Assembly (NCBI RefSeq): GCF_016125955.1
Contig: NZ_JADEVE010000415.1
Location: forward strand, 62,001 to 126,000
Source of the DNA: Acetomicrobium sp. S15 = DSM 107314
Lineage (GTDB): Bacteria > Synergistota > Synergistia > Synergistales > Thermosynergistaceae
DNA: 64,000 bases
Direction of reading: 5' to 3'
The translations under genes were made by a program, and so were the position numbers. Under the pieces are notes generated by a model. That model made no database searches and was not told the DNA's origin. It was given only the letters and a program-made list of their open reading frames with translations. The first letter of the stretch is position 1; each line of letters begins with the position of its first letter. Shown piece by piece: positions 12,876 to 18,675 of this stretch.

Positions 12876-14576
12876 GTGTTTCCTCGATATGTCGATTACG
12901 ATGGAAAGCCATTTTATGCCGAACGCGGTTGGCTCATAGGAGATGGCCAGATAGGGGGCAAGGCGAAGGGGATCGCCTTTGCCCAATCGGCCGTGGCCGA
13001 AGCCGAAATGAGCTGCGAAGTGAGCTTCCCTCATACTACTTTTGTCATCACTACGGAAGTTTTCGACGAATTTATGCGACGCAATGTCCTGGAACCGATA
13101 GTGCGGGGTAGCGAGGATTTTTCGCAGATAGAGAAAGCCTTTGAAGAAGCGCCGCTTCCGGAAAACGTAAGGAGCGCCCTCGCCGGCATCCTTCAGCGCA
13201 TAGACAGCCCAGTAGCCGTGAGGTCTTCGTCGATCTTAGAAGACGACATAGCCTTGGCTTTCGCCGGCAAATACGAGACGCGCTTTTTCGGGAATCGAGG
13301 GAACTTGGAGTACCGGTTGCGCCGTCTGGAGCGCGCCGTAAAGCTCGTATATGCCTCTACGTTCAACCCTACGGCCAAGGCCTATAGGCGTAAGCATGGG
13401 ATCAAGCTTGCGAGCGAAAAGATGGCGGTGATAATTCAGCCCGTAGTGGGTCGTTGCCGCGGCAATCTCTATTACCCGGAACTTGCGGGTGCTGCTTTTT
13501 CCAAGGTATTTCGCAGGCCAACACCGAGGGTGCGCAAAGAAGACGGCGTGTTGAGGCTCTGCTTTGGCTTGGGCACTCGCGTGGTGGGTCGCTCCTTCGC
13601 TCGCACCTTTTTCTTGTCGCACCCCGGGATTCGCCCTGAAGGAAATAGCATGGCTGACATACTTTCTCACGCCCAAGACGAATTCGATTACGTCGATCTG
13701 GAGCACGGTTTCTTGTTGGGGATGGATGCGAATAAAGCAATAAGCCACATCATGAAACATCACAAAAACGCAGCCTCGTTTTTGGAGCTCGCCTATGACG
13801 ATTCCTTCCATTGGATTCTCTCCGAGGTGCGGCACTTAGCTTATGCTAAGGCGGTCTTCACTTTTAGCGACTTCCATCGCCGCTTCCCGTGCTTCTTCGA
13901 TCAGCTTCGAAGGGTGCTTTCGCTGTTCGAGGAGACTATGAGGTTGCCCGTAGATATAGAGTTGACCTATGAGACCGAGGGCGAACAGATGAATATAGTG
14001 CAACTGCGCCCGCTCGCCACATATGAAGAGTTCGGGCGGGTGGAGATCCCGAGGGACATTCCTCGTGAGCGAATACTCCTGAGAGGGAGCGGCATGGTCT
14101 CGAACGGCGTATTGGAGAGGGTATCTCATATCGTATGTGTGGACCCATCGGCGTATCTGCGTTCAGACCCTCATCTCGTGGCCAGAGCCGTTGGAGCAGC
14201 CAATGAAGCGCTGAAAGGCGGTTATATCCTCGTCGGGCCCGGTCGTTGGGGAAGCGTCAACCCGGCCTTGGGCGTGCCGGTCCGTTACGGTGAGATATCG
14301 AACTGCAATTGTCTGGTAGAAGTAGGCTTCTCCAATTCGGGCATGGCCCCCGAACTCTCATATGGTACGCATTTCTTCTTGGATTTGGATGCTGACGGCG
14401 TGCTCTACCTTCCGGTCTTAGAGGGCAAAGAGGCGAACGTCTACAACAGGGAGTGGTTTTCTGAAAGTCCTTACGAGGAGGGGCAACATCCGGCTGTGCG
14501 CATATATCACGGCAACTTCTCCGTCTTGCTGGATGGGGAAAACGATGTAGGGGTAGTAATCGTCAATGAACCGTGA
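12876..14576 (+). CDS. PEP/pyruvate-binding (PPDK N-terminal) domain protein, copy A
   Basis: A 566-residue protein with the ATP-grasp nucleotide-binding domain of PEP synthase and pyruvate phosphate dikinase: LIGDGQIGGKAKG near residue 20, VRSSSILEDDIALAFAGKYE near 110, MAVIIQPVVG near 185 and a closing ELTYETEGEQMNIVQLRPL near 365. It lacks the swivelling domain with the phosphorylated His and the C-terminal PEP/pyruvate barrel. Instead it has a domain of about 170 residues with GPGRWGSVNPALGVPVRYGE and ELSYGTHFFLDLDADGVLY. I recall this tail from uncharacterised PEP/pyruvate-binding proteins. It starts at GTG 12876 with a weak ribosome site. Function unknown; it presumably binds ATP and may phosphorylate or ligate a substrate. 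Confidence 0.8.
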   Translation: MFPRYVDYDGKPFYAERGWLIGDGQIGGKAKGIAFAQSAVAEAEMSCEVSFPHTTFVITTEVFDEFMRRNVLEPIVRGSEDFSQIEKAFEEAPLPENVRSALAGILQRIDSPVAVRSSSILEDDIALAFAGKYETRFFGNRGNLEYRLRRLERAVKLVYASTFNPTAKAYRRKHGIKLASEKMAVIIQPVVGRCRGNLYYPELAGAAFSKVFRRPTPRVRKEDGVLRLCFGLGTRVVGRSFARTFFLSHPGIRPEGNSMADILSHAQDEFDYVDLEHGFLLGMDANKAISHIMKHHKNAASFLELAYDDSFHWILSEVRHLAYAKAVFTFSDFHRRFPCFFDQLRRVLSLFEETMRLPVDIELTYETEGEQMNIVQLRPLATYEEFGRVEIPRDIPRERILLRGSGMVSNGVLERVSHIVCVDPSAYLRSDPHLVARAVGAANEALKGGYILVGPGRWGSVNPALGVPVRYGEISNCNCLVEVGFSNSGMAPELSYGTHFFLDLDADGVLYLPVLEGKEANVYNREWFSESPYEEGQHPAVRIYHGNFSVLLDGENDVGVVIVNEP

Positions 14577-14607
14577 CTATTTGCGCGCTTATGAGAGGTA
14601 GAGAGTT

Positions 14608-16329
14608 ATGAATGACGCACGCAGGGCATATTTTTTGTGGGATCCCGCCGGGGACAGCGAACTCTCGTCGCTCATCGTAGGCGACGGGCACGTCGGGGGA
14701 AAGGGGCGCTCCCTCCTTTTCGCCATGAAGGTTTTGAGGGATAGAGGCCCGGAGGCGGTGCGCGTTTCTTTTCCTCCCTCTATTTTTATAGGCGTTGGGG
14801 TATTCCGGGACTTTCTTTCGAGTTTAAAGGGTTTCGACTTGAGAGGGATGCCCTTTGAAGCCGTTCAGGGGCTATTTCTGTCGCGTCCGCTTCCAGAATA
14901 TGTGTATAAGAGATTGGAGTCCTTCCTGTCTGACGTGAGCGCTCCGCTGGTAGTGCGAAGCAGCAGTCTTCTCGAAGATTCAACGGAACGTTCCTTCGTG
15001 GGCAAATATCTAACTACGTTTCTGACCGAAGGCGGATCGATGACCTCGCGCCTGTGGAAGTTGGAGCGAGCCATAAAGCTCGTCTACGCCAGCACCTTCT
15101 CTCAGGCCGCGGAGAGCTACAGATCGAGGCATGGGTTAGGGGACGACGCCATGGGTGTGGTGGTCATGCGCATGGCCGGGAAGTGGCGCGGGCGCTATTA
15201 TTACCCCACCACGGCGGGCGTGGCTTATTCGAGGAACTACAGACGCTGGTCGCCTCGCATTAAGGTCGAAGATGGGATGGTGCGCCTCTGTTTCGGCTTG
15301 GGGACGATCAGCACGAGGAGGGGGTATGCCAGGACTTTCTCGCTTACTAATCCGTATCTGAGGCCAGAAGGGCATGATCCGTTCAAGATAATGCGCCAGG
15401 CCCAAGAACGCTTTCAGGCTTTGGACGGCATGACAAAGGGAATCGTGACCCTCGACATCAAGAGGATGTGGCGCGACCTGATGAAGTATCATGACGACCT
15501 TGGGGTATTGGCGCAAGTTTACCGCCCGGGCTCCGAAGGCGGATATTTCGATTTTTTGGGGAGCCTCCTTTTAGATCCTCCTTCTCCTGGCACCAAGCCG
15601 TGTTTCACCTTTGAGGATTTTCCGAGGCGCTACCGACACTTCTTCGAGCGGATGAAGGGGCTACTTTCGTTTCTCGAAGAGGCCATGGGCATGGCCGCGT
15701 ATGTCGAATTCGCCTACGAGACGGAAGACGACAACCTTGAACTCTTGGAGGCGCGCCCTCTATGGGAGAATAAACCGATGGGCGGCAAAAAGATCCCCGA
15801 CCTGTCGGGCAAACGCGTGATACTCAAAGCTAACCGCATGGTCACCGACGGCTTTGTCGAAGGATGCCCATGCCTAGTGTATGTGGATTATCGCAGTTAT
15901 GCGGCGGATAAGGATTACGCTGGGGTAGTCAAGGCCCTCGGTGAGTTGAACAAGCTCCTTGGGGGCGAGCGTTATATCCTGGTTGCGCCTGGGAGGGTGG
16001 GGTCGAGCAATCCAGAGCTCGGCGTCCCCGTGCAATATCACGAGCTCACCAACTGTCGTTGCATTGTTGAGGTCGGCTTGCCAAAGTTGGGCTTCATGCC
16101 CGAGCTCTCTTACGGCACCCACTTCTTCGCCGATCTCGAGGAGGAAAACGTCCTTTACATGCCGGTGTTCGAGGGAGAAGCTGACAACGTCTTCGATCAG
16201 GGTTGGTTTGAAAAGACCCCACACGAAGCCACACTTCACCCCACAGTGCGGCTCTATCGAGGGAGTTTTTCTGTCTATATGGACGGCGAGCGCAACGTCG
16301 GCGTGGTTATAGACGACCTTGCCGGGTGA
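14608..16329 (+). CDS. PEP/pyruvate-binding (PPDK N-terminal) domain protein, copy B
   Basis: A 573-residue paralogue of the preceding gene, 31 bases downstream. The same landmarks are present in order: IVGDGHVGGKGRSLLFA, VRSSSLLEDSTERSFVGKYL, MGVVVMRMAG, EFAYETEDDNLELLEARPL and the tail with GRVGSSNPELGVPVQYHE and ELSYGTHFFADLEEENVLY. The Trp of GRWGS is Val here, and the closing part of the ATP domain differs more than the tail. Like copy A it has no phosphohistidine or barrel domain. Tandem retention of two diverged copies suggests a heteromeric complex or separate substrates (inference). Confidence 0.8.
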   Translation: MNDARRAYFLWDPAGDSELSSLIVGDGHVGGKGRSLLFAMKVLRDRGPEAVRVSFPPSIFIGVGVFRDFLSSLKGFDLRGMPFEAVQGLFLSRPLPEYVYKRLESFLSDVSAPLVVRSSSLLEDSTERSFVGKYLTTFLTEGGSMTSRLWKLERAIKLVYASTFSQAAESYRSRHGLGDDAMGVVVMRMAGKWRGRYYYPTTAGVAYSRNYRRWSPRIKVEDGMVRLCFGLGTISTRRGYARTFSLTNPYLRPEGHDPFKIMRQAQERFQALDGMTKGIVTLDIKRMWRDLMKYHDDLGVLAQVYRPGSEGGYFDFLGSLLLDPPSPGTKPCFTFEDFPRRYRHFFERMKGLLSFLEEAMGMAAYVEFAYETEDDNLELLEARPLWENKPMGGKKIPDLSGKRVILKANRMVTDGFVEGCPCLVYVDYRSYAADKDYAGVVKALGELNKLLGGERYILVAPGRVGSSNPELGVPVQYHELTNCRCIVEVGLPKLGFMPELSYGTHFFADLEEENVLYMPVFEGEADNVFDQGWFEKTPHEATLHPTVRLYRGSFSVYMDGERNVGVVIDDLAG

Positions 16330-16335
16330 GAGAGT

Positions 16336-17244
16336 TTGTACGAATTCAAGGTTTCGCGGCATGACGATGGGCGGAGGCTGGATAAGGTCTTGAGGGGTCT
16401 TTGGCCGGCGGTGCCTTTGAGTGCCATCATGCGCTCCATCCGCAAAGGTAACGTCAGGGTCTGCGGTCGAAAGGCTCACCCTTCCTCTCGTCTGCGCGAA
16501 GGAGAAAGGGTGAGCGTTCCCTGGGAAGCGCCTTCAACGAGGGGAACGCGCCCCATGCCTGGCCCGGTCGATGTGGTTTACATCGACGAGCATATGCTCG
16601 TGGCCAACAAACCCGCAGGCCTGCTGAGCCAACCGTCGAGTCGCACTTCAGACAGCCTTTTGGGGCGCATCGTGGCCATGTACGGGCGAGAAGGCGGCTT
16701 TCCTCCCACGCTGGTTCATCGTCTCGATAGAAATACTTCCGGTCTGGTCATGGCGGCGCTGGATGGGCTCTCTCTGCGCTCTCTCTCCGTTGCCATGCGG
16801 GAAGGGAAGATTTTTAAGCGTTACTGGGTCGTCGTGATCGGCGACCTCCCCGATAGGGGGGAGATCGATCTGCCGCTCGAAAAGGATACCGAGAGCAATA
16901 TCACCTTTGTGTCGCAAAGGGGCTCGCGCGCCCTGACACGATATCGCGCCATTTTGCGATGGAAAGACTTCACTCTCGCCGAAATGGAGCTCGTTACCGG
17001 AAGGCCTCATCAGATAAGAGCCCACCTTGCTGCCATAGGCTATCCTATAGTGGGAGACGTAAAATATGGTGGCCTTGTAGCGAGGCGTTGGGAAAATGCC
17101 TTGCGCCCCCTGCTTCATGCGCGCGAACTCTCTTTTGGCGATATGCCCGACGCGCTCTCTGTCCTTTCTAATATGAGGCTCATCGCCCCTTTGCCGCCCG
17201 ACTTCGAGAGGCTTCTCCCTCCTCAGACGGCACTCCTCGGGTAA
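16336..17244 (+). CDS. RluA-family pseudouridine synthase
   Basis: The 302-residue protein has an N-terminal S4 RNA-binding domain (GRRLDKVLRGLWP to GNVRVCGRKAH) and the RluA catalytic domain. The signature LVHRLDRNTSGLVMAA near residue 130 contains the catalytic Asp; GRPHQIRAHLAAIGYPIVGD follows near 220. It isomerises uridine to pseudouridine in rRNA (RluC/RluD type) or tRNA; which target cannot be read. It starts with TTG at 16336, 6 bases after the stop of the previous gene, with GAGAGAG-type ribosome binding sequence. Confidence 0.92.
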   Translation: MYEFKVSRHDDGRRLDKVLRGLWPAVPLSAIMRSIRKGNVRVCGRKAHPSSRLREGERVSVPWEAPSTRGTRPMPGPVDVVYIDEHMLVANKPAGLLSQPSSRTSDSLLGRIVAMYGREGGFPPTLVHRLDRNTSGLVMAALDGLSLRSLSVAMREGKIFKRYWVVVIGDLPDRGEIDLPLEKDTESNITFVSQRGSRALTRYRAILRWKDFTLAEMELVTGRPHQIRAHLAAIGYPIVGDVKYGGLVARRWENALRPLLHARELSFGDMPDALSVLSNMRLIAPLPPDFERLLPPQTALLG

Positions 17245-17255
17245 GGCGCGGCGGC

Positions 17256-17284
17256 TTTTCAATATTGCCCCCATGGGGTATAAT
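17256..17284 (+). promoter_or_regulatory. Promoter of the selenoprotein-rlmN unit
   Basis: TTTTCA at 17256-17261 and a perfect TATAAT at 17279-17284 are exactly 17 bases apart. The -10 lies 31 bases before the GTG of the HesB-like gene. Confidence 0.7.
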
Positions 17285-17315
17285 CGACCTACCAGAGCAA
17301 ATGGGAGGGGATATT

Positions 17316-17624
17316 GTGGCAGATCTAAGGCTTGAAATTACAGAAGAAGCGAAAGACAAGCTTCGCAGGATGGGAACGAGCGAGGTCACCGTAGCTTTGG
17401 GAAAGGTCGGATTTGGCTGAAGCGCGTTCCTTTCTGCCCTCGTGAAGGGCGGCTCTCCGAGCGATAGGGAAAAGTTCCTCTCTCTCGCGGAGGACGGCTT
17501 TACCGTGTGGGTGCCAAAGGACATGCAGTTTCGCGATAACGTGGTCCGCTTGGACGTGAAGAGGGAGTTCCTGCGCAGCACGCTCGCGATTGACACGGCC
17601 GTTTTGGACTTCGGAAGTTGCTGA
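17316..17624 (+). CDS. HesB/IscA-like selenoprotein with in-frame UGA (Sec-35)
   Basis: From GTG 17316 the frame gives 102 residues if the TGA at 17418-17420 is read as selenocysteine. Before it stands ITEEAKDKLRRM and VTVALGKVGFG, then Sec-Ser-Ala-Phe, and the frame continues as coherent protein (FTVWVPKDMQFRDNVVRLDV) to a C-terminal FGSC and stop at 17622. This matches known HesB-like selenoproteins, where Sec lies in a G-G-U-S stretch after the second strand, equivalent to the first Cys of A-type Fe-S carriers. A hairpin 13 bases after the TGA fits a bacterial SECIS. Ribosome site GGGAGGGG lies at 17303-17310. Role likely in Fe-S or redox metabolism; not established. Confidence 0.82.
17434..17452 (+). 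promoter_or_regulatory. Putative bacterial SECIS hairpin
   Basis: CTGCCCT (17434-17440) pairs with AGGGCGG (17446-17452), with one U-G pair, around the 5-base loop CGTGA. The apical loop begins 21 bases after the TGA and has an unpaired G, as expected for SelB-binding elements located within the coding region. Confidence 0.62.
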
Positions 17625-17646: not shown

Positions 17647-18675
17647 TTGAAGAAAAGAGAAGCTCTCGATCTAAAGTGCGAAGAATGGGAGGCCTTGTTC
17701 GAGGGATGGAAGGAGCCGAGATATAGGGCCTCCCAGGTTTGCGACTGGATTTACAAAAAGCGGGTTCTTGGCTTCGACGACATGACCAATCTGTCTTTGC
17801 CCCTGCGCTCGCGCTTAAAAGAAGCGCTTGATCTTTCTCTGCCGGTTTTGATTGAGCGAAGGCAGTCCAGCCGTGGCGATGCCATAAAGTATCTGTGGAA
17901 GTTGCACGACGGGGAAAGCGTAGAGTCTGTAGTAATGCGCTACGAAGGGCGCGATACGGCGTGCCTTTCGACACAGGTGGGTTGTCCTTTGGGATGCTCT
18001 TTTTGCGCTACCGGTAAGAGCGGCTTCGTGCGAAACCTCACCTCCGGCGAAATTGTCGGGCAATTCCTGGCCATGGAAGCCGACATCGGCGACTCCATAG
18101 AAAACGCAGTGTATATGGGTATGGGAGAGCCGTTCCTGAATCTGGATGCGGTTTTCGATAGTGTCCGCAACCTGAACCATCCCAAGATGCGCGCTCTCGG
18201 CATCCGCCACATTGCCATCTCGACCGTAGGCATCGTGTCCGGCATAAGGGCCCTGGCGCATTCCGGCTTGAAGGTACGCCTCGCCGTTTCGCTTCATGCC
18301 CCCAACGATGACCTACGGACGCAGCTTATGCCGGTCAACGTCTCAAATCCTCTGAGTTCGCTGTATAAAGCCCTTAAGAGTTTTCAGGAGATTACCGGAG
18401 AGCGCATCTCCATAGAATACATGCTCATAAGCGACATCAATGACGAGCTGAGCCTGGCCGACGAGCTTGCCGATTACCTCAAAGGCCTCCATGTTTACAT
18501 CAACCTGATACCTTATAATCCCACTGATGGGTCTTTCAAGCGGCCTCCTCGCGGAAGGGTGGAGGCGTTCAGGAAAAGGCTCGAAGAATTGGGATACGAG
18601 GTGGCCCTGCGCAAAGGGTTGGGTGTCGACATAGAGGCAGCTTGCGGTCAGTTGCGACGCCGCACATTGATATAA
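17647..18675 (+). CDS. rlmN: Dual-specificity RNA methyltransferase RlmN
   Basis: A radical-SAM enzyme that methylates C2 of adenosine 2503 in 23S rRNA and A37 of some tRNAs. The 4Fe-4S motif C-x3-C-x2-C is seen in CPLGCSFCATG, followed by YMGMGEPFLN, and the C-terminal methyl-carrying Cys in IEAACGQLRR. The start is uncertain: TTG 17647 gives 342 residues and has GGAGGTAG at 17628-17635; TTG 17626 is also possible. It lies 22 bases after the selenoprotein gene and probably shares its transcript. Confidence 0.95.
   Translation: MKKREALDLKCEEWEALFEGWKEPRYRASQVCDWIYKKRVLGFDDMTNLSLPLRSRLKEALDLSLPVLIERRQSSRGDAIKYLWKLHDGESVESVVMRYEGRDTACLSTQVGCPLGCSFCATGKSGFVRNLTSGEIVGQFLAMEADIGDSIENAVYMGMGEPFLNLDAVFDSVRNLNHPKMRALGIRHIAISTVGIVSGIRALAHSGLKVRLAVSLHAPNDDLRTQLMPVNVSNPLSSLYKALKSFQEITGERISIEYMLISDINDELSLADELADYLKGLHVYINLIPYNPTDGSFKRPPRGRVEAFRKRLEELGYEVALRKGLGVDIEAACGQLRRRTLI

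Follow-up and report, generated by a model that had tools for sequence, protein, structure and literature searches.

Does the in-frame TGA at position 17418 of this stretch of DNA end a short reading frame, or is it the selenocysteine (Sec) codon of a gene that is missed when the ordinary genetic code is applied? In the window, that is the whole stretch of 64,000 nucleotides analysed here, the ordinary code gives only open reading frames of 51 and 60 aa at this locus, and a simple gene map is blank from 17245 to 17589. When TGA is read as Sec, a single frame runs from a GTG start at 17316 through 34 codons to the TGA (17418-17420), and then through 67 sense codons to a stop TGA (17622-17624). 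The translated product is VADLRLEITEEAKDKLRRMGTSEVTVALGKVGFG-U-SAFLSALVKGGSPSDREKFLSLAEDGFTVWVPKDMQFRDNVVRLDVKREFLRSTLAIDTAVLDFGSC, with the C-terminal end ...DFGSC. The following features describe the locus:

17256..17284, + strand: promoter-like site TTTTCA-17-TATAAT, a consensus match only (10/12 matches; 0.2 expected in shuffles)
17303..17310, + strand: strong ribosome-binding site GGGAGGGG, 5 nt upstream of the GTG, from sequence reading
17316..17624, + strand: predicted selenoprotein gene of 102 residues with Sec35, IscA/SufA fold and NF041239 type (ORF with TGA read as Sec, homologues, NF041239 match of 33.3 bits, structural model and fold match)
17418..17420, + strand: in-frame UGA, putative Sec codon for residue 35 (78 TGA, 9 Cys and 4 other among 91 aligned copies)

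An earlier note on this DNA had proposed this frame with its FGSC end, a promoter and a ribosome site before the GTG, and a gene that is invisible to ordinary gene calling, and all of this could be recovered from the sequence. Taking our observations together, we consider it almost certain that this is a genuine selenoprotein gene, in which UGA 17418 would be decoded as Sec by means of a hairpin to give a product with an IscA/SufA fold.

First, we looked for relatives in 188 Synergistota genomes and found them in 66 genomes with the protein itself and in 48 with the NF041239 model. In roughly two out of three genomes no copy could be detected, and therefore the family is not essential. After retrieving the homologue loci in Synergistota, we aligned 91 distinct copies. 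At the Sec codon column, 78 of them carry TGA, nine carry TGC or TGT, and TCC, TGG, CGC and CGG occur once each, while TAA or TAG was never found among these 91 copies. The earlier note had expected that relatives would show no unrelated sense codon at this position; this holds for the 87 of 91 copies with Sec or Cys but fails for the four others (Ser, Trp, Arg and Arg), which, given this large majority, are best read as putative secondary losses. The region after the UGA is conserved as protein through to its end among the homologues, and thus, as expected for a bacterial selenoprotein, the in-frame UGA occupies a codon equivalent to Cys and is followed by conserved coding sequence. In a genome of the same genus (G177), the TGA and the frame are kept with 95% protein identity and indels start only past the final stop. 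After the UGA, seven codons differ, four changes being synonymous in the coding frame and one or two in the other frames, small numbers that may serve as supporting evidence only. Also, of the 56 genomes in which a copy has TGA, 52 were found to have selB (Fisher p = 9e-7, uncorrected for relatedness), the four others being incomplete (56-86% complete).

Several copies deserve a separate mention. One genome (G114; L018/L075, G114:C1:2136710-2137463) carries a Sec copy next to a Cys copy, and the hairpin of the Cys copy is weaker (-4.3 vs -11.2 kcal/mol), making the pair a natural control. In two others (G182 and G183; L082, L084, L087, L088, L091, L108 and others), as many as four divergent paralogues with a UGA occur per genome, and these do not lie beside the RluA neighbour described below. 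An apparent second TGA in G008 and G010 was discarded, as it seems to be the regular terminator with unrelated sequence behind it. A plasmid search returned no relative.

Second, we examined the RNA downstream of the UGA, where the following element is found:

17434..17452, + strand: SECIS-type hairpin CUGCCCU-CGUGA-AGGGCGG with a stem of 7 bp (fit to the published bSECIS model; pairing selected across UGA copies)

The bSECIS model asks for a loop of 3-9 nt, a stem of at least 4 bp, a G in the first two loop positions, a distance of 16-37 nt from the UGA and an energy of at most -7.5 kcal/mol (PMC13188914). Here, the loop begins 20 nt after the UGA, the G is at the second loop position and the energy is -10.1 kcal/mol, so that spacing, stem, loop G and energy all fit the model, with nothing unusual. 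The 7-bp hairpin with a G in its loop, which according to the earlier note starts 13 bases past the UGA, is thus present within the coding sequence and passes the bacterial SECIS check suggested there.

For this gene taken alone, generic folding of 17418-17480 gave no signal (z = -0.02) and the hairpin was not significant against synonymous recoding (p = 0.08). An Rfam search found nothing relevant. The bSECIS model is fitted at 3.4% of random window positions and at 7.4% of other positions in the same genes. The conserved peptide A-L-V-[EK]-[SG]-G could by itself create a hairpin, and we therefore compared each copy with 400 synonymous recodings that followed local codon usage. A model-conforming hairpin was found in 43 of the 77 UGA copies compared to 9.1 expected (mean z -1.8), and several stem positions were paired far beyond the recoding expectation in these 77 copies (z up to 8.8), although such z-scores overstate certainty since related copies are not independent. 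The other 34 UGA copies miss the strict -7.5 kcal threshold, many of them with the same shorter hairpin. In contrast, no Cys copy out of nine had a model-conforming hairpin (0.3 expected; mean z +0.2), in a set that is small and mostly made of one distant subfamily. Moreover, the third base of the Ala codon and the facing first base of the Ser/Gly codon form C-G in 39, U-A in 30 and a mismatch in 6 of the 77 copies. No other single observation speaks as strongly for selection at the RNA level as this compensation. Together these data, strongly significant across the family, argue for selection on the hairpin in UGA copies only, and a SECIS hairpin downstream of the UGA, another hallmark of bacterial selenoprotein genes, is in place.

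Third, we searched the source genome (2.44 Mb in 438 contigs, phylum Synergistota) for the Sec machinery. It contains a tRNA-Sec (77.6 bits) whose anticodon reads UGA, a selA gene (569 bits) adjoining selB (369 bits), and a selD gene (346 bits) that itself contains one in-frame TGA. Hence SelA, SelB, SelC and SelD, whose existence the earlier note had predicted from the locus, are all encoded, as a bacterial selenoprotein requires. The phylum, as Synergistetes, has been published as rich in selenoproteins (PMC5029168). For the selD product (L013, G000:C388:121688-125617), too, we predict a selenoprotein (...SSAAG-U-AAKIG...), and UAGGUCC-GGC-GGACCUA 3' of its UGA may form a hairpin. Sequence comparison thus supports the gene, the column of Sec or Cys, selection on the hairpin, the Sec machinery and the predicted fold. 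As for decoding in vivo, we infer that it is SelB-dependent: UGA 17418 would be read by SelB together with Sec-tRNA(Sec), and the hairpin at 17434-17452 would guide the insertion of Sec from inside the coding sequence.

What kind of protein would result? An AlphaFold2 model built with window and locus sequences reached a pLDDT of 88.5 and a pTM of 0.76, and no fewer than nine of the ten best matches in the PDB have the IscA/SufA fold. The best one is E. coli SufA (E = 4.2e-4, probability 1.00, TM 0.57), and IscA, AQ_1857, HI1723 and DsrR are others; TM-scores to IscA/SufA are moderate (0.47-0.57). In profile-profile alignments with E. coli IscA, SufA and ErpA (89-94% probability, compared to at most 0.5% for unrelated window proteins used as controls), Sec35 falls on Cys35 of IscA and the final Cys falls in the Cys-Gly-Cys region. 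The match to PF01521 remains below threshold (17.4 against a gathering score of 26.3, E = 0.005; 2e-5 for the best relative). Fold similarity and a homologous profile place the protein in the IscA/SufA/HesB fold. Sequence searches of the PDB gave no convincing relative with the single sequence and none with the profile, and a search of PHROGs gave nothing convincing. These results support a small protein with a predicted IscA/SufA/HesB fold, with Sec in place of the first conserved Cys (Cys35 of IscA) and usually one or a few Cys near the C-terminus.

The likeness to IscA, SufA and ErpA (PF01521) therefore concerns the predicted fold, the first ligand position and, usually, a Cys near the C-terminus. 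However, the A-type proteins have Cys35 where the selenoprotein has Sec35, and they have a Cys-Gly-Cys motif where the family often has a single C-terminal Cys and some members have none. Instead of the three Cys ligands of IscA (C35, C99 and C101), we find here Sec35 and a single C-terminal Cys. The absence of the C-terminal Cys in some members speaks against a strict cluster site of the IscA kind, so that such a site cannot be taken for granted. Sec35 and the C-terminal Cys may bind a metal or an Fe-S cluster, or may carry out selenol redox chemistry. Metal or Fe-S binding, or redox chemistry with the C-terminal Cys, would be the most likely activity, and it is the least certain step of our proposal. 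That Sec35 serves selenol redox chemistry or scavenging to the exclusion of metal or Fe-S binding is a tentative alternative within the same selenoprotein reading, to which we give somewhat less than an even chance. In the several members without a C-terminal Cys, Sec would be the sole invariant thiol or selenol, and most selenoproteins are regarded as redox proteins (PMC13188914), but A-type Fe-S proteins have this same fold and most members retain a C-terminal Cys or a Cys-rich tail.

The selenoprotein reading also raises the question of the family. The protein matches NF041239 over nearly its full length, Sec included, with 33.3 bits (E = 3.8e-8), short of the 40 bits set as the curated cut-off; each of the 15 relatives tested matches this model, the best above the cut-off, and the members compared all come from Synergistota. 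NF041239, "CC/Se motif family (seleno)protein" (Moor_selen_rel), is a hypothetical family predicted in Moorella thermoacetica and listed among selenoprotein families, with a CxxU motif (PMC13188914; Moorella members are known to us by this description only) that differs from the GxGU found here. The alignment of these 15 sequences has no stretch conserved enough to serve as a search query; a contig search with an alignment of close relatives recovered Synergistota only. The earlier note had called the product a HesB/IscA-like selenoprotein, and the IscA part stands, with an IscA/SufA fold and Sec35 at Cys35 of IscA, but the protein falls outside the curated HesB-like family TIGR01911. Membership in that classical family is very improbable. 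It would agree with the common fold and the equivalent position of Sec, and the first Cys of CCGP in two TIGR01911-like sequences (L135/L136) aligns to the same column, but the TIGR01911 profile does not match the selenoprotein even at E = 10, it scores above its cut-off in none of the 188 Synergistota genomes, the motif is GxGU[SAG] and not UxGP (PMC13188914), and NF041239 is matched instead. We rejected it on these grounds, and the label that fits the predicted product is that of an NF041239-type selenoprotein with an IscA fold rather than of a HesB-like one in the curated sense.

It is still less probable that translation simply ends at the TGA, as a normal stop or as a damaging mutation, so that the locus is a pseudogene or encodes a product of 34 aa with a separate ORF of 60 aa behind it. 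Standard gene calling does show fragments only and the fold of the single gene is unremarkable (z = -0.02), but we rejected this reading given that 78 of 91 copies from across the phylum have TGA at this codon and most of the remainder have Cys, that the protein is conserved to its end after the UGA, also in G177, and that the genome has the Sec machinery. Also, the TGA is common to independent assemblies and is therefore not a sequencing error. Finally, UGA reassignment occurs in some bacteria, but we reject as barely credible that UGA encodes a different amino acid, for example Trp, through a genome-wide code change or unspecific readthrough, because the gene itself and many homologues terminate with TGA, the column holds nine Cys and a single Trp in a copy otherwise devoid of the motif, and there are a dedicated Sec pathway and a selected hairpin.

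The selenoprotein reading being retained, we turned to the neighbours of the gene:

16336..17244, + strand: RluA-type RNA pseudouridine synthase, conserved upstream neighbour (PF00849, E = 1.2e-27; upstream on the same strand in 52/92 homologue loci)
17647..18675, + strand: rlmN-type radical SAM rRNA methyltransferase with an inferred start codon, next gene downstream within this genus (PF21016 and PF04055)

The RluA-type gene lies directly upstream in nearly all loci of the core family, and in 52 of 92 loci overall, while more distant paralogues are located elsewhere. The same position is kept by the copy in which Sec is replaced by Cys (G115) and by copies that have lost Sec (G120 and G121), which are therefore probably orthologues. 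The rlmN-type gene is also downstream in G177 but not in the other homologue loci examined. Further upstream of the RluA-type gene, 12876-16329 encodes two related proteins in tandem, of about 570 aa and with a PPDK_N domain (PF01326), and similar sequence is also found upstream in the genomes of family f3. The placement suggests that the selenoprotein would be co-expressed with the upstream RluA-type pseudouridine synthase.

Searching for canonical A-type carriers, we found PF01521 above its cut-off in none of the 188 Synergistota genomes compared to 9 of 14 control genomes. The divergent selenoprotein family is therefore the main predicted IscA-fold protein detectable in Synergistota. In the literature searched, we found no mention of the RluA placement or of Synergistota without PF01521 carriers. 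That the phylum lacks canonical A-type Fe-S carriers and that the Sec family is a derived A-type protein, with Sec as a key metal or Fe-S ligand and a functional coupling to the RluA-type synthase, is a broader idea that we regard as doubtful.

The existence of the selenoprotein family was known; what is added here is the correction of the family, the codon-level SECIS evidence, the fold with the position of Sec, and the RluA linkage. As the NF041239 score of 33.3 bits is below the cut-off of 40, model-based annotation would probably overlook the gene. It is a clear example of a locus unseen by standard annotation with strong comparative evidence for UGA recoding. For a family so far listed as hypothetical, IscA/SufA is now the likely fold, and its Sec can be assigned to a ligand position. 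The Sec and Cys pair of G114, the Cys-only and lost forms and the conserved RluA neighbour would together form a natural test set for asking why selenium is used here.
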